This document shows, one piece after another, positions 7,160 through 34,959 of a stretch of DNA of 35,990 nt (position 1 is its first letter; each line of letters begins with the position of its first letter). The notes under the pieces were generated by a model. The model did no database searches. It worked only from the letters and a program-made list of their open reading frames with translations, and was not told where the DNA came from. The stretch is from Longimicrobium sp. (lineage in GTDB: Bacteria; Gemmatimonadota; Gemmatimonadetes; Longimicrobiales; Longimicrobiaceae). The DNA lies in NCBI GenBank assembly GCA_036387335.1, contig DASVTZ010000087.1, positions 1-35,990 of the forward strand, in the 5' to 3' direction. The position numbers and the translations under genes were made by a program.

Positions 7160-7623
7160 GGCGGGGCCCTCACCCCCGTTCGTTCCTCGCTGCCCCCTCT
7201 CCCGATAACAGGAGAGGGCTGCGCCCTCGCCGTTATCGAGAGAGGGGGCTGAAAACGAATGGCCCCCTCCCCCCGGCCCCCTCCCCCGCCTGCGGGGGCG
7301 CAGGGCGGGTGAGGGGGAGAAACCGCGCGCTTCGCCGATGCCCCGTAGGGGCGCGATTCATCGCGCCCGTGCCCCGCGCTGCCCCGCACCCCGCCGACGC
7401 ACACCGGTACCGGTAGGGGCAGACCTGCGTGTCTGCCCGCCCTCGCCCCGGCCGTGATTGTCGCCGTTCGGCACCGACACCCGTAGGGGCCGCCCCACGT
7501 GGCTGCCCGTGCCCGCCCGCACGACGACCCACGCCCCCGCACACGGATATACGCCACCGCCCCTCCCCCAGGTAGTTTTGGGGGAGGGGCCGCGAGTTCA
7601 CGAGCGGGGGAGGGGGCCCGCGC
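7160..7623. repeat. Composite palindromic repeat block, fullest copy
   Basis: 464 bases without a gene between the anti-sigma and ETF-QO genes. It begins two bases after the stop with GCGGGGCCCTCACCCCC and holds six modules in order. A: long hairpin with GATAAC/GTTATC (7193-7248). B: CCCCCGC-ct-GCGGGGG within a C/G-rich tract (7272-7320). C: GTAGGGGC module with GCGCGATTCATCGCGC (7345-7368). D: GTAGGGGC module with AGACCTGCGTGTCT (7413-7438). E: GTAGGGGC module with CGCCCCACGTGGC (7483-7508). F: CCCCTCCCCC/GGGGGAGGGG stem (7561-7590). The same order is found in the blocks at 14.2 kb and, inverted, at 25 kb. Confidence 0.8.
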
Positions 7624-9294
7624 TTACATCCGCTTGTACGCCGGCCCGCTCCCACCCTCCCGCGGCGTCCACCGCGGCCCGATGACGTCGGTGGCCTTGC
7701 AGTCGATGCAGTTGGGGGCGTTCACCACCAGACGGTCGCCCTGGCGCTCGTAGACGTTGGCCGGGCAGAGGTGCGCGTACATGTCCGCCACCTCGCCCGG
7801 GATGTCCTGCCCCACGATCAGGTGCGACGGGATGTCGTCGCGCGTGCCGTTGCCCGACTTGAAGACCGCGTCCACCTTGCTGAACGTCAGGGTGTTGTCC
7901 GGCACGAAGGGGGTCTCCGGCGTGACCACCTTCTCGGTCTCCGCGTCCGGCTCCATGGCGATGCGGCCGGCGGGGATGCGGCCGCCCGTGACGGTGGCGA
8001 GCCCCGCCTTGATCCCGCCCACGAAGAAGCCGTCCTTGAACCCGAGCCGCATGTTGCGCGTCTTGTGCAGGTCGTCGCGGATGTAGCTGGCGTCCACCAG
8101 CTTGTCGTAGGCGCCCAGCGACGCGGCCGAGACGTCGCCCTGCTTCAGCGACTCGAAGATGGTGCGCGCGGCGTAGATCCCCGACTGCATGGCGTAGTGG
8201 ATCCCCTTGAGCGACGCCACGTCCACGAAGCCCGCCGTGTCGCCCACCATCAGCAGCCCGTCGCCGTAGCGGCGCTGCGGCAGGGCGTAGAGGCCGCCCT
8301 CGGGAATCGTCTTGGCGCCCCACTCCACCATCTCGCCCCCCTCCAGGTACTTGCGGAAGAAGGGGTGCAGCTTCATCCGCTGCAGCAGCTGGTGCACGTC
8401 CAGCGTGGTCTGGCGGTAGTCGAGGCCCACGACCAGGCCGATCGCCACCACGTTCGGCTCCAGCGGATACATGAAGCTCCCGCCGAACGCGTCGCGCGGC
8501 AGGGGCCAACCCAGCGTGTGCACCACCCGGTCGAGCGGCACCTTGGTCTCCCAGATCTCCTTGACGCCCAGTGCGTAGATCTGTGGGTTGTCGGAGGTGA
8601 TCCCCTGCCACTGGCGGTACGCCTGCCCCAGCGGCCCGCGCGTCCCCTCGGCCAGCACGGTGACGCGGGCGGTGAGGTCGGTGGCGGGCTCGTGCGTGCT
8701 CCCCGGCGTGCCGTCGCGCTTGAGGCCGGAGGGCGTCGTGCGCACGCCGATCACCTTCTTGCCATCCACCAGGAGCGAGTCCACCGGGAAGCCAGGAAGG
8801 ACGTTGACGCCCAGCTCCTCCGCCTTGCCGCCCAGCCACTGCACGATCTCGCAGATGGAGCCCACGTAGTTCCCCCGGTTGTGCATGGGGGGCGGCGTGG
8901 GGAGGCGGATCTGCCCCGTCTCCGTGAGGAAGAGCACCGATTCCGAGTCCACGCGGCCGCGGAAGGGGAAGTCCTCGTCCTTGAGGTCGGGGAAGAGCTC
9001 GCGAAAGGCGCGCGGGTTGACGACGGCGCCGCTCAGGCAGTGCTCGCCCAGCGCCTGCGCCTTGTCCAGGACGGCGATGTTGACCTCGCCCAGGGTGCCG
9101 CCGTTCTCCGCGTCCTTTTGCACGAGGCGCGCGAGCTCGATGGCGGTCGCCAGCCCGCCGGGCCCGGCGCCCACGATCACCACGTCCATCTCCAGCGCCT
9201 CGGCGTCGGGCGCCTCGGCCAGGATCATCCGTTCGCGCGGGAGGTCGGGCTGGTGCCGCACCGGGAGCACGGTACGGCGTGCGCTGTCTGCCAT
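7624..9294 (-). CDS. Electron transfer flavoprotein-ubiquinone oxidoreductase
   Basis: Passes electrons from reduced electron transfer flavoprotein to the quinone pool at the inner membrane. The 556-residue protein has an FAD-binding dinucleotide fold at the N-terminus (DVVIVGAGPGGLATAIELA, about residues 37-55), the family motif GEHCLSGAVVNPRAF, a second FAD contact (GLLMVGDTAGFVDVASLKGIHYAM), and a C-terminal ferredoxin-like domain (CPANVYE, then NCIDCKATD). Known relatives bind a 4Fe-4S cluster with four cysteines. Here Cys510, Cys529 and Cys532 are present, but the fourth place is Thr535. The start ATG at 9294 has GGAG about 7 bases upstream. The frame stays open far upstream, but those residues are not family-like. 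No etfA or etfB is in the window. Confidence 0.93.
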   Translation of the reverse strand: MADSARRTVLPVRHQPDLPRERMILAEAPDAEALEMDVVIVGAGPGGLATAIELARLVQKDAENGGTLGEVNIAVLDKAQALGEHCLSGAVVNPRAFRELFPDLKDEDFPFRGRVDSESVLFLTETGQIRLPTPPPMHNRGNYVGSICEIVQWLGGKAEELGVNVLPGFPVDSLLVDGKKVIGVRTTPSGLKRDGTPGSTHEPATDLTARVTVLAEGTRGPLGQAYRQWQGITSDNPQIYALGVKEIWETKVPLDRVVHTLGWPLPRDAFGGSFMYPLEPNVVAIGLVVGLDYRQTTLDVHQLLQRMKLHPFFRKYLEGGEMVEWGAKTIPEGGLYALPQRRYGDGLLMVGDTAGFVDVASLKGIHYAMQSGIYAARTIFESLKQGDVSAASLGAYDKLVDASYIRDDLHKTRNMRLGFKDGFFVGGIKAGLATVTGGRIPAGRIAMEPDAETEKVVTPETPFVPDNTLTFSKVDAVFKSGNGTRDDIPSHLIVGQDIPGEVADMYAHLCPANVYERQGDRLVVNAPNCIDCKATDVIGPRWTPREGGSGPAYKRM

Positions 9295-9463
9295 GGGTTC
9301 TCCGATGATCGTGTGCTGGGTCTTTTCGCGCGCCAAGATACGCGGCCCGCGCACCCAGCGCAAACCGGGCGCGGGCACGCGGTTGCGGCGTGATTCACGG
9401 GGCATGTGCCTTGCTCCGGCCCCCGGGTGACAGGGCAGAAAACCGACGGCGGAAGGGGGACGG

Positions 9464-10396: not shown

Positions 10397-12475
10397 TTAC
10401 ACCAGCGTCGGCTCCATGAAGTAGTCGAACCCATGCTCCGAGCTCCGCCACGCCCGCACCCTGAAGATCCTCGCGGGCGCGCCGGGATCGAGCCGGATCC
10501 AGTGCGAGCCGCCGTGCCAGAAGTGGCGCTCGCCGGTCAGCAGCTCCTCCACCTCCCACGGGTCGTGCCAGCCGATCCCCATGTCCGGCAGGGGGAAGTG
10601 CAGCATCCCCTCGTGGGCCGAAAACGGGTCCAGGTTCACGGCCACGAAGATGAGGCTCGCCCGGTCCGGCGTCATCTTGCCGTAGAAGAGGATGTTCTCG
10701 TTCTCCGCCGGGTAGAAGCGCAGGTTGTCGTACTCCTGCAGCGCGCGGTTCTGCTTGCGGATCTCGTTGAGGCGGCGAATGAGGCCGCGGATGTTGCCGG
10801 GGCGGTCCCAGTCCCACGCCTTCAGCTCGTACTTCTCGCTGTCCAGGTACTCCTCCTTGCCCGGCGCCAGCGGCGTGCCCTCGCACAGCTCGAAGCCGCT
10901 GTAGATGCCGTAGACGGAGGACAGGGTGGTCGCCAGCACCGCGCGGATCATGAACGCGGGGCGGCCGCCGCGCTGCAGGAACTCCGGGTTGATGTCCGGC
11001 GTGTTGGGGAACAGGTTGCCGCGGAAGTAGTCCTTCATCGGCCCCTGCGTCAGCTCCTCCAGGTACTCGATGATCTCGCCCTTGAAGTTGCGCCAGGTGA
11101 AGTACGTGTAGCTCTGGCTGAAGCCGGCCTTGGCCAGCGCCCGCATCATCTTGGGGCGCGTGAAGGCCTCGGAGAGGAAGAGCACCTCCGGGTGCTGCCG
11201 CTGCACCTCGCGGATCATCCACTCCCAGAACTGCACGGGCTTGGTGTGCGGGTTGTCGACGCGGAAGATCTTCACCCCCTGCTCCACCCAGTGCAGGATG
11301 ACGTCGCGCCACTCCTTCCACTGCGCTTCCCAGTCGTCGCCGTAGAAGTTGAGGGGATAGATGTCCTGGTACTTCTTGGGCGGGTTCTCCGCGTACTTGA
11401 TGCTGCCGTCCGGCCGCACGAAGAACCAGCTCGGGTGCGCTTTGGCGTACGGGTGATCAGGGGAGACCTGGATGGCGAAGTCGAGCGCGATCTCCAGCCC
11501 GTGCTCCGCCGCCGCGGCCACCATGCGGCGGAAGTCCTTGAGCGAGCCCAGCTCGGGATGCACGTCGCGATGCCCGCCGTCCTTGCCGCCGATGGCGTAC
11601 GGCGACCCCGGCTGGTCCTTGCCGGCGCCCAGCGTGTTGTTCTTCCCCTTTCTGAACGCCAGCCCGATCGGGTGGATCGGCGGAAAGTACAGCACGTCGA
11701 ACCCCATGTCGCGCACGTACGGCAGCTTGGCGATGACGTCGTCCCAGGTGCCGTGTCGGGTGGGATCGTCGGCCATGGAGCGCGGGAAGAGCTCGTACCA
11801 CGCCGCGAAGCGCGCCGCCACCCGGTCCACCTGCACAGGGAGGACGGGCTCGAACTGCGTCAGGTCCTCGCGCAGGGGAACGCGCTCCATCACCTCGAGG
11901 AGCCCCGTGTCCAGCGCGGCGGCCACGCGCTCGGCGATGGTGCGGTCCTCGGCGGCGGCGGCGCCCTTTTCGAAGGCGGCCCACTTCCACGTCCCGGGCG
12001 CGGCCTCGTGGTCCAGCACGTCGCCGATCATCTCCGCGAGGTGCTCCAGGATCGTCTCTCGCTCGGTGTCTGGAGCGGCCGCAGCGGTGCGCGCGACGAT
12101 CTCGGCGCCCTCGAACAGCTCCAGCACCACCTCCTGGCCGGCATCGTACTTCTTGCGCAGATCGCTCTGCCAGGTGCCAAAGAAGTCGGTCCAGGCGACG
12201 ACGGTGTAGTACCAGCGGCAGTTGCGGTCGGGGGTGAACGAGCCGGTCCAGCGGTCGTTGTCCCAGAACTTCATGGGCGTCTCGCGCCACTCCTCCTCGT
12301 CCTCCGGCCGGTACCAGATGGCCGCCGAGATGGCGTCGTGCCCTTCCTTGAAGATGTCCGCGCGCACCTCGATCGTATCCCCCACCTCGCGCTTGATGGC
12401 ATACCGCCCGCAATCGAGCTGCGGCGTCACCTCTTCGATGACCACCTTCCGGCTCGCCTCGATCTGTCCCTTCAT
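10397..12475 (-). CDS. glgE: Alpha-1,4-glucan:maltose-1-phosphate maltosyltransferase
   Basis: Adds maltosyl units from alpha-maltose 1-phosphate to the non-reducing end of alpha-1,4-glucan. The 692-residue protein has the GlgE-specific N-terminal domain (about 1-200, with EVRADIFKEGHD and RWYYTVVAWTDFFGTWQ). The GH13_3 barrel follows, with RHGTWDDVIAKLPYVRDMGFDVLYFPPIHPIG written here only in part, and the hallmark FRVDNPHTKP with nucleophile Asp407. SEAFTRPKMM holds Glu436. These last two motifs separate GlgE from ordinary amylases. Maltose 1-phosphate normally comes from TreS-Pep2 or from GlgC-GlgM, none of which is in this window. GlgB, the partner, is at 2.6-4.9 kb. Confidence 0.95.
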   Translation of the reverse strand: MKGQIEASRKVVIEEVTPQLDCGRYAIKREVGDTIEVRADIFKEGHDAISAAIWYRPEDEEEWRETPMKFWDNDRWTGSFTPDRNCRWYYTVVAWTDFFGTWQSDLRKKYDAGQEVVLELFEGAEIVARTAAAAPDTERETILEHLAEMIGDVLDHEAAPGTWKWAAFEKGAAAAEDRTIAERVAAALDTGLLEVMERVPLREDLTQFEPVLPVQVDRVAARFAAWYELFPRSMADDPTRHGTWDDVIAKLPYVRDMGFDVLYFPPIHPIGLAFRKGKNNTLGAGKDQPGSPYAIGGKDGGHRDVHPELGSLKDFRRMVAAAAEHGLEIALDFAIQVSPDHPYAKAHPSWFFVRPDGSIKYAENPPKKYQDIYPLNFYGDDWEAQWKEWRDVILHWVEQGVKIFRVDNPHTKPVQFWEWMIREVQRQHPEVLFLSEAFTRPKMMRALAKAGFSQSYTYFTWRNFKGEIIEYLEELTQGPMKDYFRGNLFPNTPDINPEFLQRGGRPAFMIRAVLATTLSSVYGIYSGFELCEGTPLAPGKEEYLDSEKYELKAWDWDRPGNIRGLIRRLNEIRKQNRALQEYDNLRFYPAENENILFYGKMTPDRASLIFVAVNLDPFSAHEGMLHFPLPDMGIGWHDPWEVEELLTGERHFWHGGSHWIRLDPGAPARIFRVRAWRSSEHGFDYFMEPTLV

Positions 12476-12543
12476 CGGCTCTGGAGTTCGCTTGGATTTA
12501 GTAGCTCGGTTGGCGCGGCGGGCCGCAAGCGTCGGGCCAGGGG

Positions 12544-12576
12544 AAGTGCGTTAGTGCGTCAGTGCGTTAGTGCGTT
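12544..12576. repeat. Left inverted-repeat arm of the four-helix-bundle cassette
   Basis: Four tandem copies of an 8-bp unit close to AGTGCGTK. Read against the reverse complement of 13044-13076, 30 of 33 positions match. The same array bounds the element at 26878-27189. Confidence 0.85.
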
Positions 12577-12655
12577 GGATCCGTCGCGTGGCGCAGGCGA
12601 GAGTGTGGATGCGGGGTATCTAGTGAGACATCCACTCACCAAGGGTATCGGCGCG

Positions 12656-13018
12656 ATGAAGGTGCAGCAGTTCGAGGACCTCGTAGTCTGGCAGAGGGCG
12701 AAGGAGCTCTCGGTTCTGATCTATCAATCGAGCGCCGGAGGGCGGTTCTCGCGGGATTATGCGCTGCGCGATCAGATTCGCAGAGCCGCCGTCTCCGTGA
12801 TGTCGAACGTGGCGGAAGGCTTCGAGCGGTACAGCCGCCCCGAGTTCCGCCACTTCCTCTCGATCGCGCGGGGCTCCGCCTCCGAGGTGCGCAGCCAGCT
12901 TCACCTCGCGCGCGAGCTCGGCTACCTCACCGGAGAGGAACACCGACAGCTACACGACCACTGCGTCGAGCTCAGCCGCCTCCTCGCCGCCCTCCGTGCA
13001 TCCACCATCCCAACCTGA
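12656..13018 (+). CDS. Four-helix-bundle protein (23S rRNA intervening-sequence family)
   Basis: A 120-residue protein with the family's typical opening FEDLVVWQRAKELSVLIY and the core FSRDYALRDQIRRAAVSVMSNVAEGF, written in part, then RHFLSIARGSASEVRSQL and LSRLLAALR. This is the S23/IVP family, first seen inside intervening sequences of 23S rRNA genes and related in fold to the Avd accessory protein of diversity-generating retroelements. Its biochemical role is unknown. The ATG at 12656 fits the conserved start (MKVQQFEDL); no clear Shine-Dalgarno is seen. It is not next to an rRNA or reverse transcriptase here. It lies inside a 533-bp interval bounded by inverted AGTGCGTK arrays, which suggests a mobile cassette. 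Confidence 0.9.
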   Translation: MKVQQFEDLVVWQRAKELSVLIYQSSAGGRFSRDYALRDQIRRAAVSVMSNVAEGFERYSRPEFRHFLSIARGSASEVRSQLHLARELGYLTGEEHRQLHDHCVELSRLLAALRASTIPT

Positions 13019-13043
13019 CCGAACACGTAACTCGAAGCCTTCA

Positions 13044-13076
13044 AACGCACTCACGCACTAACGCACTCACGCACTT
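13044..13076. repeat. Right inverted-repeat arm of the four-helix-bundle cassette
   Basis: Inverted partner of 12544-12576, starting 26 bases after the gene's stop codon and followed by CTTTTATTC. Three mismatches in 33 positions against the left arm. No obvious target-site duplication outside the two arms. Confidence 0.85.
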
Positions 13077-13104
13077 CTTTTATTCGGTTTTTATTCGCAC
13101 AAAG

Positions 13105-13124
13105 TTCACACTGTGGTGTATATT
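13105..13124 (+). promoter_or_regulatory. Candidate recA promoter and operator
   Basis: The only AT-rich stretch near recA. TATATT (13119-13124) is a good -10 element about 60 bases before the start codon; the -35 is weak (TTCGCA at 13094 with a 19-base gap). An ACAC-n4-GTGT inverted repeat (13109-13120) lies just upstream of the -10, where a LexA-type repressor could bind. The link to SOS control is a guess from the gene's usual regulation. Confidence 0.35.
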
Positions 13125-13184
13125 GGTTGCGGCTCACGGGGGGTGGGCGTGCGGAGGCTTTTACCTGGGGCGGAGAGCTGAGAA

Positions 13185-14204
13185 ATGGAGCTCGTGATGA
13201 ACGCTGACAAGACCAAGGCGCTGAACGTCGCGATCGGGCAGATCGAGAAGGCGTACGGCAAGGGCGCGATCATGCGCATGGGCGTGGACGGCCCCATGGT
13301 GAAGGTGCGCGCCATCTCCACCAGCGCCATCCACCTGGACGCCGCAATCGGCGTGGGCGGGGTGCCGCGCGGCCGCATCACGGAGATCTTTGGGCCGGAG
13401 TCGTCCGGCAAGACCACGCTCTGCCTCCACCTGATCGCCAACGTCCAGGCCGAGGGCGGCATCGCGGCTTTCGTGGACGCGGAGCACGCGCTCGACATCG
13501 AGTACGCCCGCAAGCTCGGCGTGGACGTCGACAACCTCCTCGTCTCTCAGCCCGACAACGGCGAGCAGGCGCTGGAGATCACCGAGACGCTCATCCGAAG
13601 CGGCGCGGTGGACATCGTGGTGGTGGACTCGGTGGCCGCCCTCGTGCCGCGCGCCGAGATCGAGGGGGAGATGGGCGACAGCCACATGGGGCTGCATGCG
13701 CGCCTCATGAGCCAGGCACTGCGCAAGATCACCGGCGCCATCAACCGCAGCCAGACCACGCTCGTCTTCACCAACCAGATCCGCGAGAAGATCGGCGTCA
13801 TGTTCGGCTCGCCGGAGACGACCACGGGCGGGCGCGCGCTGAAGTTCTACGCTTCGCTGCGGCTGGACGTGCGACGCATCGGCACCATCAAGGACCGCGA
13901 CGTCGCCGTCGGCAACAAGACGCAGGTCAAGGTGGTGAAGAACAAGGTGGCGCCGCCCTTCAAGCAGGTCGTGTTCGACATCATGTGGGGCACCGGCATC
14001 GACCGCTTCGGCACCATCGTGGACCTCGGCGTGGAGCACGACGTGATCTCCAAGAGCGGCTCCTGGTTCAACTACGGCGACCTGCGCCTGGGCCAGGGCC
14101 GCGAGAACGTCAAGGCGTTCCTCCAGGAAAACGTCCCCCTTGCCACCGAGATCGAGGACAAGGTAAAGGTGAAGGCGGGGTTCGGGGTGGTGGAGGTGGC
14201 GTGA
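13185..14204 (+). CDS. recA: Recombinase RecA
   Basis: Forms filaments on single-stranded DNA, drives strand exchange and stimulates LexA self-cleavage. The 339-residue protein has the Walker A motif GPESSGKTT (about residues 69-77), the family signature [14 protein letters not shown], the L2 region [21 protein letters not shown] in part, and the Walker [10 protein letters not shown]. The C-terminus is short and lacks the long acidic tail of the E. coli protein. Two ATG codons are possible, 13185 and 13197 (MNADKTK), each with a GGAG at suitable spacing; the second gives the more usual N-terminus. The gene stands alone: recX and alaS do not follow. A repeat block starts at once after the stop. 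Confidence 0.97.
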
Positions 14205-14500
14205 GGGGCCCTCACCCCCGGCTCGTTACACTCGCCTGCCCCCTCTCCCGATAACAGGAGAGGGCTCCGCCCTCTGTTATCGAGAGAGGGGGCTGGGTGC
14301 CGTTCCACCGTGGTTTGCGCCGCGCGGAGGGCCCCCTCCCCCGCCTGCGGGGGCGCAGGGCGGGTGAGGGGGAGAACTCCGCTTTCGGCTGCACAGATCC
14401 CGTAGGGGCGCGATTCATCGCGCCCGTGCCTTGTGCTGCTCCGCGACCCGTCGGCGCGCACCGATACCGGTAGGGGCAGACCTGCGTGTCTGCCCACCCT
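14205..14500. repeat. Composite palindromic repeat block after recA
   Basis: Starts directly at the recA stop with GGGGCCCTCACCCCC. It carries the first four modules in the same order and orientation as the 7.2 kb block: the GATAACA hairpin (14239-14292), the CCCCCGC/GCGGGGG tract (14331-14373), the GCGCGATTCATCGCGC module (14402-14425) and the AGACCTGCGTGTCT module (14470-14495). The last two begin with GTAGGGGC. The E and F modules are missing. Confidence 0.8.
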
Positions 14501-14601
14501 TGCCGGGTTTCGATCTGTCCGGCATGAAATAGGCTCACCGCTGCACATGCCCAGATTGGCCGATCGGACGAACGCTCCGCGTCGCGCTGTGGAGGATTTC
14601 A

Positions 14602-16573: not shown

Positions 16574-16710
16574 GGCTCACGCGGAGACGCGGAGACGCAG
16601 AGAGACGCACAGAAAAAGCCTCACACGGAGAGGACACAGAGGGAACCGCAAGCCACAGAAAACCTCTTTTTTGCACTTTTCTCTGTGTCTCTGTGTCTCT
16701 GTGTGAGGCC
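16574..16710. repeat. GGAGACGC/CTCTGTGT palindromic repeat
   Basis: The left arm (from 16574) has tandem GGAGACGC and CAGAGAG units. The right arm (16680-16710) has CTCTGTGTCT units ending GTGTGAGGCC. The arms can pair into a long imperfect hairpin. Related sequence occurs at 26963-27139, 29266-29369 and 34869-34900. No open frame here looks real. Confidence 0.75.

Positions 16711-20792: not shown

Positions 20793-20796
<4 letters not shown>
20164..20796 (+). CDS. Second CheB-type methylesterase, stand-alone domain
   Basis: About 210 residues, a bare CheB catalytic domain. Visible are CLVVIASSLGGIQALRHIL (Ser-x-Gly-Gly catalytic serine), VVVQHLEPGRRS (His), VFVAPPGRHVVV and VVLTGCDSDGSLGVRAIKEAGG (Asp), all typical of CheB. 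It lacks the receiver domain that normally controls activity. The start is uncertain. GTG 20152 sits only one base after a GGAGG, GTG 20164 has that site 13 bases away, and TTG 20212 lies nearer the conserved fold. The stop overlaps the start of the CheR-like gene by ATGA, so both are translated together, probably as an enzyme pair with opposite actions. Confidence 0.85.
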
Positions 20797-22658
<1,862 letters not shown>

Positions 22659-24941: not shown

Positions 24942-25290
24942 GGCCCCCTCCCCCGCTCGGTCCTCGCGGCCCCTCCCCCAAACCTGCTGGGGGAGGGGCG
25001 TTTGGCGTGGGCTGGTGCCGGGTCCGCGTGGACCGCGCGCGGGCGGGCACGGGCAGCCACGTGGGGCGGCCCCTACGCGGATCGGTGTGCGTGAGCGGGC
25101 GTCGTGGCGGGGGCAAGGGTGGGCAGACACGCAGGTCGGCCCTACGGCATCCCTTTCGAACGCGGGCGGCGCGGCACGGGCGGGCACGGGCGCGATGAAT
25201 CGCGCCCCTACAGGATCTGTGCGGCGCAGAGGGAGTTCTCCCCCTCACCCGCCCTGCGCCCCCGCAGGCGGGGGAGGGGGCCGGGGGGAG
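24942..25290. repeat. Composite palindromic repeat block, inverted
   Basis: Starts directly after the kinase stop codon. Modules occur as reverse complements in mirror order of the 7.2 kb block: F (24970-24998, CCCCTCCCCCA/TGGGGGAGGGG), E (25051-25076), D (25121-25145), C (25188-25211) and B (25238-25282). Module A is missing. Modules E, D and C end in CCCCTAC or GCCCTAC. The first stem may terminate the signalling operon. Confidence 0.8.
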
Positions 25291-25376
25291 GGGGCGGTTG
25301 CACCCCTTCCCGCGAAGGTTAGATTCCCGCGCCCGCACCAAAACGCGGTACGGCACACCCCAGAACAGGGCGGATC

Positions 25377-26873
25377 ATGGCGGACAAGTTCAGGAACTTC
25401 ATCGGCGGCGAGTGGGTGGAGCCGTCTTCGGGCGAATACTTCGAGAACCGCAACCCGGCCCGCTGGTCGGAGGTGATCGGGCTGTGGCCGCGCTCCGGCC
25501 AGGAAGACGTGGACCGCGCCGTCGCCGCCGCCAAGGAGGCGTTCCCGGCCTGGGCGCGCACGCCCGCGCCGGACCGCGGCAACATCCTACGCCGCGTGGG
25601 GGACCTGCTCAGCGAGCGCAAGGACGAGATCGCCAGGGCCGCCACGCGCGAGATGGGCAAGGTGCTCACCGAGACGCGTGGCGACGTGCAGGAAGGGATC
25701 GACACCGCCTACTACGCCGGCGTCGAGGGGCGCCGCCTCTTCGGCAAGACGGTACCGTCGGAGCTTTCCAACAAGTGGGCCATGACGTACCGCCGCCCCA
25801 TCGGCGTGTGCGGGCTCATCACCCCGTTCAACTTCCCGCTCGCAATCCCCACCTGGAAGATGTTCCCGGCGCTGGTGTGCGGGAACACGGTGGTCATCAA
25901 GCCGGGCGAGGACGTACCGCACACGGTCCAGCTCCTGGTGGAGATCCTGGAGGAGGCCGGCATCCCCAGGGGCGTCGTCAACCTGGTCCACGGCGAGGGC
26001 GCGACGGGCGCGGCCATCGTCAACCACCCGGACGTCGCGGCGATCTCCTTCACCGGCTCCACGGCGACGGGCAGCATCATCGGGCGCGCGTGCGGCGAGT
26101 CGCACAAGCGGCTGTCGCTGGAGATGGGCGGCAAGAACGCGCAGATCGTGATGGCAGACGGCGACCTGGACCTGGCGCTCGAGGGCGTGCTCTGGGGCGC
26201 GTTCGGCACCACGGGGCAGCGCTGCACCGCCACCAGCCGACTCCTCCTCCACGACTCCATCCACGACGAGTTCCTGGAGCGCCTGGTGGAGAAGGCGAAG
26301 GGGCTGAAGCTCGGCTACGGGCTGGAAGACGGCCCCGAGGTCGGTCCGCTGATCAACGAGCGGGCGCTGGAGAAGGTGAAGAGCTACATCGAGATCGGCC
26401 GCTCTGAGGCGCGCCTGGTGATCGGCGGCGAGCGCGCCACGGGCGGGGGTCTGGACGACGGCTGGTTCTTCCAGCCCACCATCTTCGCCGACGTGAAGGC
26501 CGGTTCGCGCCTGGCGACGGAGGAAATCTTCGGCCCGGTGCTCTCGGTGATCCGCTTCAGCGACGTGGACGAGGCGTTCCGCATCAACAACGAGGTGAAG
26601 TATGGCCTCTCGAGCTCCGTCTACACGCGCGACGTGAACATCTCGTTCCGCGCGCTGCAGTACCTGGACAACGGCATCACCTACGTGAACGCCCCCACCA
26701 TCGGCGCCGAGGCGCACCTCCCCTTCGGCGGCGTGAAGCAGACGGGCAACGGGCACCGCGAGGGCGGCTGGGAAGTGTACGAGTTCTATTCGGAGACCAA
26801 GGTCTGCTACGTGGACTACTCCGGCAAACTCCAGCGCGCCCAGATCGACAACTACGGCGGATCTCCGTACTGA
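25377..26873 (+). CDS. NAD(P)-dependent aldehyde dehydrogenase
   Basis: Oxidises an aldehyde to a carboxylic acid. The 498-residue protein shows FNFPLAIPTWKMFPALVCGN and VVIKPGEDVP (cofactor binding), FTGSTATGSIIG, catalytic Glu in LSLEMGGKNAQIV, catalytic Cys in GTTGQRCTATSRLLLH, EEIFGPVLSVIRF, and LPFGGVKQTGNGHREGG near the end. The GQRCTATSR motif is seen in semialdehyde-oxidising members such as alpha-ketoglutarate semialdehyde dehydrogenases and ALDH7-like enzymes, but substrate cannot be read from sequence. The ATG at 25377 has AGGGCGG nearby. The gene stands alone, between a repeat block and a MITE-like element. Confidence 0.93.
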   Translation: MADKFRNFIGGEWVEPSSGEYFENRNPARWSEVIGLWPRSGQEDVDRAVAAAKEAFPAWARTPAPDRGNILRRVGDLLSERKDEIARAATREMGKVLTETRGDVQEGIDTAYYAGVEGRRLFGKTVPSELSNKWAMTYRRPIGVCGLITPFNFPLAIPTWKMFPALVCGNTVVIKPGEDVPHTVQLLVEILEEAGIPRGVVNLVHGEGATGAAIVNHPDVAAISFTGSTATGSIIGRACGESHKRLSLEMGGKNAQIVMADGDLDLALEGVLWGAFGTTGQRCTATSRLLLHDSIHDEFLERLVEKAKGLKLGYGLEDGPEVGPLINERALEKVKSYIEIGRSEARLVIGGERATGGGLDDGWFFQPTIFADVKAGSRLATEEIFGPVLSVIRFSDVDEAFRINNEVKYGLSSSVYTRDVNISFRALQYLDNGITYVNAPTIGAEAHLPFGGVKQTGNGHREGGWEVYEFYSETKVCYVDYSGKLQRAQIDNYGGSPY

Positions 26874-26877
26874 ACGG

Positions 26878-27189
26878 AAGTGCGTGAGTGCGTTAGTGCG
26901 TGAGTGCGGGGCGGCGTCGCGAGATGCCGCCCCTGGCTGTATTCGAAAAAACCAACTGCAATCTCACGCGGAGACGCGGAGACGCAGAGAGAACAACCTG
27001 AGAAAAGCCTTACACAGAGAACACAGGAGGAACTGAAAGCCACAGAGAAAACCTCTGGCTGTTCTTCCTCTGTGGCTCTGTGTCTCTGTGTGAGCCATGC
27101 AGTCGCGGTTCTCTCTGCGCCTCCGCGTCTCCGCGTGAGCCCCGCTGTTCAGTCCCTCCGCACTCACGCACTAACGCACTCACGCACTT
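26878..27189. mobile_element. MITE-like nested palindromic element
   Basis: A 312-bp gene-less element. Its ends (26878-26908 and 27159-27189) are a perfect 31-bp inverted repeat made of the 8-bp unit AGTGCGTK. Inside lies a second inverted repeat (26963-26994 and 27108-27139) of GGAGACGC/GCGTCTCC units with one mismatch in 32. A third, imperfect pair (CACAGAG and CTCTGTG stretches) lies inside that. The ends match those of the four-helix-bundle cassette at 12.5-13.1 kb. It starts five bases after the aldehyde dehydrogenase stop. No transposase and no clear target duplication are seen, so mobility is inferred. Confidence 0.6.
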
Positions 27190-27276
27190 TCTTTCCCGGA
27201 ACGGGCCCAAACCTCGCGTGTACGTACCAAACCGGGCATCCAGCCCCACCTGCGGTACCGCGGCACCGAGCTCACG

Positions 27277-28050
27277 ATGGAAGAACTGCATTCCCCGCAT
27301 CCCTTGGACGGCCAGCCCCCCGCCGAGCGCCGCGTGACGGTCGCCGATCCGCGCGGCTCCGTCTCCACCGGAAGGTGGATGTGGGAGTGGACCAAGGCCA
27401 TCTGCACCGCCATCCTCCTCTTCCTGGGGATACGCACCTTCCTGGTGGAGGCGTACAAGATCCCCACGGGGTCGATGGAGGGAACGCTCCTGATCGGCGA
27501 CTTCCTCCTCGTCAACAAGGCCGTGTACGGCGCGGAGATCCCCGTCACCCACACGCGCCTCCCGGCCTTCTCGCACCCCAAGCGCGGCGACGTGCTGGTG
27601 TTTCTGCCGCCCCACGATCCGCACCGCAACTACGTGAAGAGGCTGGTCGGAGTGGGCGGCGACACGCTGGAGATGCGCGACAAGGTGCTCTTCAGGAACG
27701 GAAAGCCGCTGGACGAACCGTACGCCCGCCACGTGGACCCGCTCAGCGATCCGCGCGAGCCGCGGATGATCTGGCAAAAGGACTTCCTGGCCGGCACCCT
27801 CCGCGAGCGCCGCCGCTACCGCCCCACTCGCGACAACTGGGGTCCCATCGTGGTGCCTCCTGGCAAGCTGTTCGCGCTCGGCGACAACCGCGACAACTCC
27901 GAAGACTCGCGCTACTGGGGCTTCTTCGACGAGAGCGCGGTCAAGGGACGGCCCATGTTCGTCTACTATTCGTTCGAAAAAGACATCACCCAGCAGTTCT
28001 CGTGGCTCACCGCCGTCCGCTGGACGCGGATCGGGGAAGTGATCCGATAG
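27277..28050 (+). CDS. lepB: Signal peptidase I
   Basis: Cleaves signal peptides from exported proteins at the outer face of the inner membrane. The 257-residue protein has an N-terminal cytoplasmic stretch, one membrane helix (about 38-56, WTKAICTAILLFLGIRTFL) and the catalytic Ser-Lys pair: Ser66 in IPTGSMEGTLLIGD and Lys121 in NYVKRLVGVGGDTLEM. The box E motif GDNRDNSEDSRYWGF is intact. Only one transmembrane helix precedes the catalytic domain, as in Gram-positive and many non-proteobacterial enzymes. The ATG at 27277 gives the expected topology. The next gene is a sigma factor with its own promoter. Confidence 0.95.
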   Translation: MEELHSPHPLDGQPPAERRVTVADPRGSVSTGRWMWEWTKAICTAILLFLGIRTFLVEAYKIPTGSMEGTLLIGDFLLVNKAVYGAEIPVTHTRLPAFSHPKRGDVLVFLPPHDPHRNYVKRLVGVGGDTLEMRDKVLFRNGKPLDEPYARHVDPLSDPREPRMIWQKDFLAGTLRERRRYRPTRDNWGPIVVPPGKLFALGDNRDNSEDSRYWGFFDESAVKGRPMFVYYSFEKDITQQFSWLTAVRWTRIGEVIR

Positions 28051-29265: not shown

Positions 29266-29369
29266 CCTCACGCGGAGACGCGGAGACGCAGAGGAACTGA
29301 AGGGGCTCACACAGAGACACAGAGGCACGGAGAGAGGTTCTCTCGGTGCCTCTGTTCTTGTGTGACCCC
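29266..29369. repeat. GGAGACGC repeat and terminator-like hairpin
   Basis: A GGAGACGC tandem (29266-29293) is followed by a long imperfect hairpin (29302-29369) with arms around GGGGCTCACACA and TGTGTGACCCC, then CAGAGGCA and TGCCTCTG. It lies between convergent genes and could end both transcripts. It belongs to the same family as 16574-16710. Confidence 0.7.
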
Positions 29370-33790: not shown

Positions 33791-33898
33791 AAGCGTGTCT
33801 GGTCGCCGACCCAGAGAAGAGCGGTAGGGACCACATAGAGACACAGCGGCGCACGGGAAAGGCGTCCTATGTCCCGCTGTTGGCGTATGTTACGCGCG

Positions 33899-33927
33899 TT
33901 GACGTTTGCTGTGGAGAAGGGCATCTT
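33899..33927 (+). promoter_or_regulatory. Candidate promoter of the antitoxin-toxin operon
   Basis: TTGACG (33899-33904) and CATCTT (33922-33927) are 17 bases apart. A GCGTA-tgt-TACGC repeat (33883-33895) lies just upstream. An imperfect repeat GTGTGGC/GCCTCACAC (33929-33949) lies between the -10 and the ATG and may be the antitoxin's operator. Confidence 0.45.
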
Positions 33928-33961
33928 TGTGTGGCAACATGCCTCACACCGAAAGGGAACC

Positions 33962-34348
33962 ATGCCTCGTAAGAAAGCCACCCCGCGCGTCCGGGAAGCG
34001 CACGCTGCGTACGCGGCCGAAGCCCCAGCCTCGGAATCGATCCCGGAGCCGGAGGCGCAGGGCGAGGCGCGCCTCAGCTTCCGCATCGACCCCGAGCTCA
34101 AGGAGCTGATCGAGCTCGCCGCGATTCATACGGGGCAGACGGTGAACTCATACGCCATCTCGACGCTTATCCGAGACGCGCGTCGGATCATTCAGGACCA
34201 GCACATTACTTACCTCTCCGAACGCGATTGGGAGATCTTCATGGATCTCATGGACAACCCGCCGCCGCCCAACGATGCGCTTATCAGGGCGATGCAGCAC
34301 CACCGCGAGTTCGTAAGGTCACATGATCGCTCGGGCGAGGAGTCGTGA
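33962..34348 (+). CDS. DUF1778-family antitoxin (TacA-like)
   Basis: A 128-residue antitoxin predicted to neutralise the acetyltransferase encoded next and to repress the operon. An N-terminal basic and Ala/Glu-rich extension (about 1-35) precedes a ribbon-helix-helix DNA-binding domain (LSFRIDPELKELIELAAIHT, then VNSYAISTLIRDARR). The C-terminal toxin-binding tail (about 85-128) has the family ending LSERDWEIFMDLMDNPPPPN followed by ALIRAMQHHREF. ATG 33962 is favoured, with GAAAGGGAA upstream; the frame extends to 33869 but through the promoter region. The stop overlaps the toxin start by four bases, which couples their translation. Confidence 0.9.
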   Translation: MPRKKATPRVREAHAAYAAEAPASESIPEPEAQGEARLSFRIDPELKELIELAAIHTGQTVNSYAISTLIRDARRIIQDQHITYLSERDWEIFMDLMDNPPPPNDALIRAMQHHREFVRSHDRSGEES

Positions 34349-34860
34349 ACCCGATCTCCGTCGATGTCGCGCCGCTCGAACGCCGGCACGATCGTGCGTC
34401 ATTCGATAGCGGCGAGCCAGCGCTGGACACGTTCTTCCGGAGGAATGCTCGCCAGAACCAGGACCGCGGATTCAGCCGCACCTACGTAGCGACAGTGCAG
34501 GGTGTAAGCCGGGTCGTGGGTTTCTACACGCTCGCGAGCGGTATGGTGTCGGCCGCAATCCTGCCCGAAGCGGAGCGTCGGCATCTGCCCCGTTATCCGG
34601 TACCGGCGGTGCAGCTGGCGCGCCTTGCGGTAGATCGCGCCGTACATGGTGGCGGAGTCGGAAAATCGCTGCTGTCGGATGCCCTTCGTCGTTCCATCCG
34701 GGCGGCCGAGATCATTGGCATCTACGCGGTTGAAGTGCATGCCAAGCACGACACTGCGGCGGCATTCTACCGCCGGTTTGGCTTCGCACCACTGGAAGAC
34801 GACCGCCTGCACCTCTATTTGCCTATCCATACGATTCCCACGACACCCGGCTCGCTCTGA
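34345..34860 (+). CDS. GNAT acetyltransferase toxin (TacT-like)
   Basis: A 171-residue Gcn5-related N-acetyltransferase. In characterised TacT-type toxins, the enzyme acetylates the amino group of aminoacyl-tRNA and blocks translation. Features include the family opening FDSGEPALDTFFRRNARQNQ, the acetyl-CoA segment QLARLAVDRAVHGGGVGKSL, and AAAFYRRFGFAPLEDD with the expected catalytic Tyr142. It begins with GTG inside the antitoxin stop (GTGA overlap) and ends cleanly. Both this gene and its partner have somewhat lower GC than their neighbours, consistent with acquisition, but this was judged by eye. Confidence 0.9.
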   Translation: MNPISVDVAPLERRHDRASFDSGEPALDTFFRRNARQNQDRGFSRTYVATVQGVSRVVGFYTLASGMVSAAILPEAERRHLPRYPVPAVQLARLAVDRAVHGGGVGKSLLSDALRRSIRAAEIIGIYAVEVHAKHDTAAAFYRRFGFAPLEDDRLHLYLPIHTIPTTPGSL

Positions 34861-34868
34861 GCGCCCTC

Positions 34869-34900
34869 TCCTCCGCGTCTCTGCGTCTCCGCGTGAGGCC
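34869..34900. repeat. Single arm of the GGAGACGC repeat family
   Basis: Tandem GCGTCTC/TGCGTCTCC units ending CGCGTGAGGCC, directly after the toxin gene. It is one arm only; no partner is close by. Confidence 0.65.
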
Positions 34901-34959
34901 AAGGGGATGCCCGCGTCGGTAGAGACGCCGTGGAAGTGCGCAAAACCCGGCGCCACGAC

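Follow-up and report, generated by a model that had tools for sequence, protein, structure and literature searches.

The window analysed here, a 35,990-nucleotide stretch of a Longimicrobium sp. genome, contains a long hairpin lying, as the initial annotation had placed it, between an aldehyde dehydrogenase gene (25377-26873, + strand) and the signal peptidase gene lepB (27277-28050, + strand). That annotation described a perfect 31-bp outer inverted repeat at 26878-27189; the repeat is real and measures 32 bp without a mismatch (26878-26909 with 27158-27189), within a wider pair of 38 nt that is 95% complementary (26872-26909/27158-27195). The second pair it reported, with one mismatch in 32, lies at 26963-26994/27108-27139, and its further inner layer corresponds to pairs at 27009-27020/27083-27094 and 27038-27050/27065-27077. 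Beyond what had been seen before, the outer arms are tandem arrays of 8-mers, AGTGCGTG/AGTGCGTT: the left arm (26878-26909, + strand) is an AGTGCGTK array reading inward, the right arm (27158-27189, - strand) is its perfect inverted partner, and the order of variant units in one mirrors that in the other. Inside them lie a GC-rich, terminator-like hairpin with no clear T-run (26908-26933) and a 177-bp palindromic repeat, here called type A (26963-27139), whose own arms, the next inward of the outer pair, are arrays of ACGCGGAG-type 8-mers and enclose an inner palindrome of ACACAGAG-type 8-mers (27009-27094).

The expectation that the whole would fold into one long hairpin was borne out by calculation. 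Folding energies for the 324 nt at 26872-27195 are -205.8 kcal/mol for RNA (z -17.6) and -120.7 kcal/mol for DNA (z -17.0); none of 100 shuffles equalled either value. No Rfam family matched anywhere in the window, and the hairpin does not lie in a 23S rRNA gene. A draft genome in 265 contigs invites the suspicion of chance or faulty assembly, which we reject as scarcely credible: across 1,000 shuffles of 26600-27500 the longest perfect inverted repeat averaged 10.6 bp and never exceeded 20 bp, none coming near the observed 32, and the same class of array recurs at the same sites in independent assemblies.

The window holds further repeats. Array hairpins or halves of the ACGCGGAG and ACACAGAG kinds, some with mixed arms, occur at 16576-16710, 29267-29366 and 34868-34917, and a different composite repeat, with identity of up to 100% over 60 nt, occupies four intergenic places (1563-1734, 7190-7530, 14205-14504 and 25036-25295). 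Nine in-register 21-nt repeats (22013-22277) lie within an open frame at 20793-22658. At 33869-34860 a gene for a GNAT acetyltransferase comes after an antitoxin-like (TacA1/HicB) gene, and the two probably form a toxin-antitoxin pair.

The 312-bp structure is a composite of separate layers and not, as the initial annotation read it, a single element, a reading we dropped because the layers are found apart: the inner repeat occurs elsewhere without the arms, and the hairpin at 26908-26933 has a homologue in a relative, G007, that lacks them. The 177-bp repeat is present in at least 40 places in the genome at 78-89% identity, a lower bound since 40 of 678 candidates were scored, and an AGTGCG array was absent within 200 nt of all seven other copies examined. 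The outer-arm array pattern has 769 genomic matches at up to one mismatch, against 261 for the backwards pattern, so that the prediction of many copies holds for both the end array and the inner repeat. Each has many non-coding copies with terminal inverted repeats, as expected of miniature inverted-repeat elements (MITEs).

Comparison of the orthologous aldehyde dehydrogenase-lepB site in 19 relatives, the contig of one (G004) ending before it, showed several arrangements. The sister genome G006, about 95% identical, has a short ACACAGAG-type hairpin only, and G007 has the homologue of 26908-26933 together with a short ACACAGAG-type hairpin; the outer arms are absent from both, and the inner palindrome of the window resembles these stand-alone hairpins. 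Other array types occupy the site in G003, G008, G001, G011 and G009, and plain hairpins are found in the more distant G014, G015, G020 and G018 as well as in the same-genus G002. The gene that follows at that place is not lepB in G005, G009 and G002. Far from being a unique locus arranged alike in all relatives, then, the structure has many copies of its parts and an armless counterpart in G006. Because G007 keeps the hairpin without arms and G006 is armless, we conclude that the outer arms surround older sequence. A simple insertion fails to explain arms placed around an older hairpin, which counts against reading them as the ends of an insertion unit.

The outer ends are shared with a cassette elsewhere in the window (12543-13082, + strand), in which a four-helix-bundle S23/IVP gene (12656-13018, + strand; PF05635, E 1.8e-36) lies between AGTGCGTK array arms at 12545-12576 (+ strand) and 13046-13077 (- strand). 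As had been noticed earlier, these ends match those of the hairpin: 13046-13077 is complementary to 26877-26908 over 32 nt at 100%. The suggestion that the hairpin is a non-autonomous relative of the cassette survives for the outer ends, which are common to both, and fails for the 312 bp as one element. Shared ends of this kind are also what a MITE has in common with its autonomous element, for which the cassette is the candidate here. Both have a long stem of complementary ends; the S23/IVP frame is found in the cassette and is lacking in the hairpin. In G006 the cassette is missing as a block, the matches to 12000-12542 and to 13083-13600 being separated by about 108 bp of a different inverted array, and in G004 it is decayed. 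The genome of the window has three genes of PF05635, a family with two relatives of solved structure (2gsc, 2rld). Each is flanked by inverted arrays of a short tandem unit, and the unit differs from gene to gene: AGTGCGTK at 12543-13082, GGGGAAT at L009 and AGTGCCT/AGTGCCA at L010. Arrays with inverted partners in 200 kb of this genome are of the AGTGCGTK, GGGGAAT and ACGCGGAG kinds, or a mixture of AGTGCTA, AGTCCTA and AGTGCCA.

The association of S23/IVP genes with convergent inverted tandem arrays is well supported in a broad sample. We aligned locally the 300 nt upstream of each gene with the reverse complement of the 350 nt downstream, using the best 80 of 561 genome-collection loci, a choice biased to proteins resembling the S23 of the window, together with 29 phylum loci and our own 3; 109 of these 112 were testable, three at contig edges (L147, L154, L177) being left out. 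Inverted flanks scoring at least 30, a threshold picked after the scores were seen, occurred at 80 of 109 loci versus 11 of 1,423 shifted windows of the same loci, and flanks scoring at least 40 at 52 of 109 versus 3 of 1,423. Within the same genome-collection contigs, 53 of 78 S23 genes had such flanks compared with 11 of 266 other ORFs. Positives came from 20 of 20 phylum-like groups, labelled by hand and one of them an unassigned bacterium. The other 29 of the 109 loci scored below 30, which counts against the insertion-unit reading set out below. We rejected the idea that cassettes without detectable arms are 23S insertions, as the 17 low-scoring S23 loci tested had no rRNA. In a separate sample of plasmid loci (16 of the 25 records from another search, 14 of the 16 cyanobacterial), 10 scored at least 29, the maximum among 63 control windows being 30, and four of the six low-scoring ones (L304, L305, L306, L308) show heptad arrays by eye. 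At one locus, on a Pseudanabaena plasmid (L315), the S23 gene is flanked upstream and downstream by TTTTAGC/TTTTGGC heptad arrays of great length.

The same test recovers a known case, scoring at least 77 at 6 of 6 Y1 transposase loci, and this bears on whether the arrays could be REP/BIME sequences mobilised by REP-associated (Y1, RAYT) transposases. Y1 transposase genes are present in 9 of 10 genomes of the genus, with two in the genome of the window, and REP-RAYT systems likewise combine many short intergenic palindromes with a gene carrying them at its ends. All six RAYT-like loci examined (L347-L352), however, are flanked by REP-like palindromes of a quite different, two-hairpin form with no tandem arrays, and the gene family is another one. 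We rejected such an origin on these differences of sequence and structure and regard it as highly improbable.

What the arms of S23 loci have in common is a period and a polarity. Over the 80 positives, mean self-identity of the arms peaks at lags 7 (0.67) and 14 (0.65); at lags 4-6 and 8-13 it stays within 0.22-0.36, and 48 control arms are flat at 0.24-0.34. The best lag was 7 or 14 in 58 of these loci and 8 in 15. Aligned period-7 units (n = 56) give the consensus AGTNNNG (A in 38, G in 40, T in 51, three free positions, G in 39); the unit of S23 arms is mostly 7 nt and differs between lineages, while that of the hairpin at 26878-27189 is 8 nt. G exceeds C on the inward-reading strand in 66 of 80 positives, and among the array matches listed for G337 and G334, read by hand, 22 of 22 opposite-strand neighbours within 600 bp converge. 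The outer arms at 26878-27189 belong to this widespread class of convergent tandem-array inverted repeats, the gene-bearing form of which carries S23/IVP.

Arms and gene are also coupled. Over 89 loci, the more alike two S23 proteins are, the more similar their arms, a trend absent below 50% identity. Cross-phylum pairs with arm similarity above 0.6 make up 23 of 188 at S23 identity of at least 0.6 versus 2 of 348 below 0.5, a Fisher odds ratio of 24 on pairs that are not independent. In a set of 31 genomes, at least 3 AGGACTG arrays were present in all 8 genomes whose S23 gene has that arm and in 5 of 23 others, a contrast that weakens at a minimum of 10 arrays (4 of 8 versus 3 of 23, p 0.05); at least 10 AGTGCTG arrays were present in 6 of 6 genomes with the corresponding arm and in 3 of 25 others. 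These counts include a few matches from the cassettes' own arms, and the backwards control pattern is itself an AGTCAGG array and so an unclean control for G313, G315 and G324. High counts with no matching arm at the S23 locus examined were found for AGGACTG at L086, L097 and L141 and for AGTGCTG at L084, L086 and L117.

This coupling has limits. In 100 kb each, there were no inverted-partner arrays in S23-positive G100, G074 and G220 and one in G154; four closed genomes that lack S23, drawn from a single family, also gave none, and 200 kb each of G000 and G009 yielded 11 and 7. G002 has no PF05635 match, yet 63 matches to a query that includes the arrays. From G002 and the array-poor S23-positive genomes it follows that arms-only arrays are possible without a resident S23, and S23 without many arms, both of which count against the insertion-unit reading. 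That such arrays follow from S23 in every genome is, given G100, G074, G220 and G154 as well as G002, unsupported. A palindromic repeat with TTTGTCATCCTGAG and CTCAGGATGACAAA ends, dispersed in the genus, sits inside several array pairs (L234 at 9170-9440, L015, L021).

Insertion of S23 units is well supported by empty sites, from which we infer it. Six genomes (G000, G006, G005, G003, G001 and G008) have the L010 cassette in the gap from pdhA to pdhB; the site is cleanly empty in G004, G002 and G009, with a few bases separating stop codon from start codon, and G007 gave no match to it. By eye, the G008 cassette is seen to be flanked by a direct repeat of 13 bp, the pdhA stop codon being part of it. 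There is no general or fixed-length target duplication among 66 S23 cassettes, 4 of which have a direct match of at least 8, compared with 2.7% of mismatched pairs, a result that counts against insertion units. The S23 gene at the pdhA-pdhB site is under purifying selection: five intact genes, compared in 10 pairs, give dN/dS of 0.06-0.21, G003 with its broken frame being left out. The initial annotation took perfect arms to imply recent origin or ongoing conversion; of these, conversion between arms finds support here, as, read by eye, the two pdhA-pdhB arms of G008 share the series C,A,C,C at the variable base and those of G001 have C throughout, the arms being alike within a genome and different between orthologues. 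Such concerted change fits conversion between arms, or selection for their pairing.

The arrays might instead be host intergenic features, such as hairpins at 3' ends or transcript boundaries, maintained and homogenised by selection and slippage, with S23 landing in their loops as a tolerated place. This would suit a further site (site 1) at which four genomes have three inverted array types: AGTGCGTT in G000, with a short related hairpin in G004, ACACAGAG in G006 and AGTGCCT in G005. It would also suit the match of S23 arm units to arrays abundant in the same genome, the variable interior of arms-only copies, and the 83% of Xanthomonas heptamer repeats that, as described in PMC4692102, keep their gene context. 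It sits badly, however, with similar S23 proteins of different phyla sharing an arm unit, with the lack of any array in the empty pdhA-pdhB sites and with the rarity of such flanks around other ORFs (11/266). We consider it possible and, on balance, rather improbable.

The neighbours of S23 genes bear both on the insertion-unit reading, which their shared direction favours, and on another alternative. At 65 genome-collection loci neither neighbour is more than 400 nt away; the neighbours are co-directional in 54, convergent in 9 and divergent in 2, and S23 runs with its co-directional neighbours in 51 of the 54 and against them in 3. Plasmid S23 genes are found inside CRISPR-Cas operons, between cas6 and cas4 (L311, L315) and between cmr2/cas10 and cmr3 (L317), and one adjoins ribonucleotide reductase genes (L307). 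An element acting at the RNA level, its stem excised by RNase III and the unit moved by reverse transcription with the help of an Avd-like S23, would agree with this shared direction, with the resemblance of PF05635 to Avd of diversity-generating retroelements (DGRs) described in PMC10053308, and with the RNase III cutting of S23-bearing 23S insertions with complementary ends described in PMC4990558. The shared direction may equally reflect selection for expression, though, and a fixed duplication is absent; we think this route distinctly unlikely.

The explanation towards which we lean, by a little, places the outer arms at 26878-27189 in a family of insertion units akin to 23S rRNA intervening sequences, as a member with arms and no gene. 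The gene-bearing members of the family have the form (AGTNNNN)n - S23 - (NNNNACT)n. Here the arms would enclose a resident GC hairpin and an independent palindromic repeat. As we propose it, a unit sits between co-directional genes, whose transcript would read through it; the arms would fold into a long stem that RNase III could cut, as it does in 23S rRNA intervening sequences, and insertion would be tolerated because the stem can be cut in this way. S23 might recognise the paired arrays, with their AGT every 7-8 nt, and help the unit to be copied or kept. Each pair of arms would stay uniform through slippage and copying from one arm to the other, even as the repeat sequence drifts apart in different lineages, and arms without a gene could spread in trans or simply persist. 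More tentatively, and with our own doubts outweighing our belief, PF05635 could be the carried gene of a class of mobile units whose ends follow no fixed sequence and are set by their convergent polarity and by the period, an AGT every 7-8 nt. S23 would then drive array copying, heptameric intergenic repeats would be arms-only descendants, and 23S rRNA intervening sequences would be the same unit in rRNA.

These results point to an overlooked, apparently mobile genetic unit in many bacterial phyla, and tie an abundant orphan family, whose members bear no annotation beyond four helix bundle or S23 protein, to heptameric intergenic repeats of unexplained origin. If the proposal is true, the S23 protein gains a genetic context and a candidate substrate, the way in which intervening sequences could reach 23S rRNA is explained, and a repeat class missed by ordinary transposon searches is exposed; such searches would miss it since its ends vary in sequence and are constant in period and polarity. 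As some units lie inside operons (pdhA-pdhB, cas6-cas4, cmr2-cmr3), they may alter operon expression.

Heptameric intergenic repeats have been known in cyanobacteria since about 1990, the STRR being of this kind. They resemble the arms described here in being intergenic 7-nt arrays, the hairpin at 26878-27189 differing in its 8-nt unit. The repeat GGGAATC is described in Xanthomonas and Nostoc (PMC4692102), with 70-75 convergent inverted pairs of heptamers in Xanthomonas, and Rehm et al. report no general link of heptamer repeats to mobile elements. TAACTGA is described in Beggiatoaceae (PMC4679880); reverse-complemented and rotated it reads AGTTATC, which fits AGTNNNN. The relevant passages of both papers name no linked gene, and 'S23' and 'four helix' occur zero times in their main texts. 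Searching an open-access library, which lacks most subscription papers, turned up no paper that connects PF05635 with such arrays.

Other known systems share some traits with these units. MITEs also have no gene, terminal inverted repeats and ends common to a gene-bearing element; unlike theirs, the ends here are tandem arrays with a unit that differs between lineages, and there is no fixed target duplication. The fold of PF05635 is related to that of the DGR accessory protein Avd (PMC10053308), whereas we identified no DGR parts. The 23S rRNA intervening sequences differ in location, the units here lying between protein genes, and in their ends, which here are 7-8 nt tandem arrays. In Coxiella and Leptospira an S23/IVP frame, which not all members have, lies between the complementary ends of these sequences; the ends pair into a long stem, RNase III cuts it, and the frame was at one time suggested to play a part in mobility (PMC4990558). 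The units have in common with them an S23 gene within a unit whose complementary ends form a long stem.
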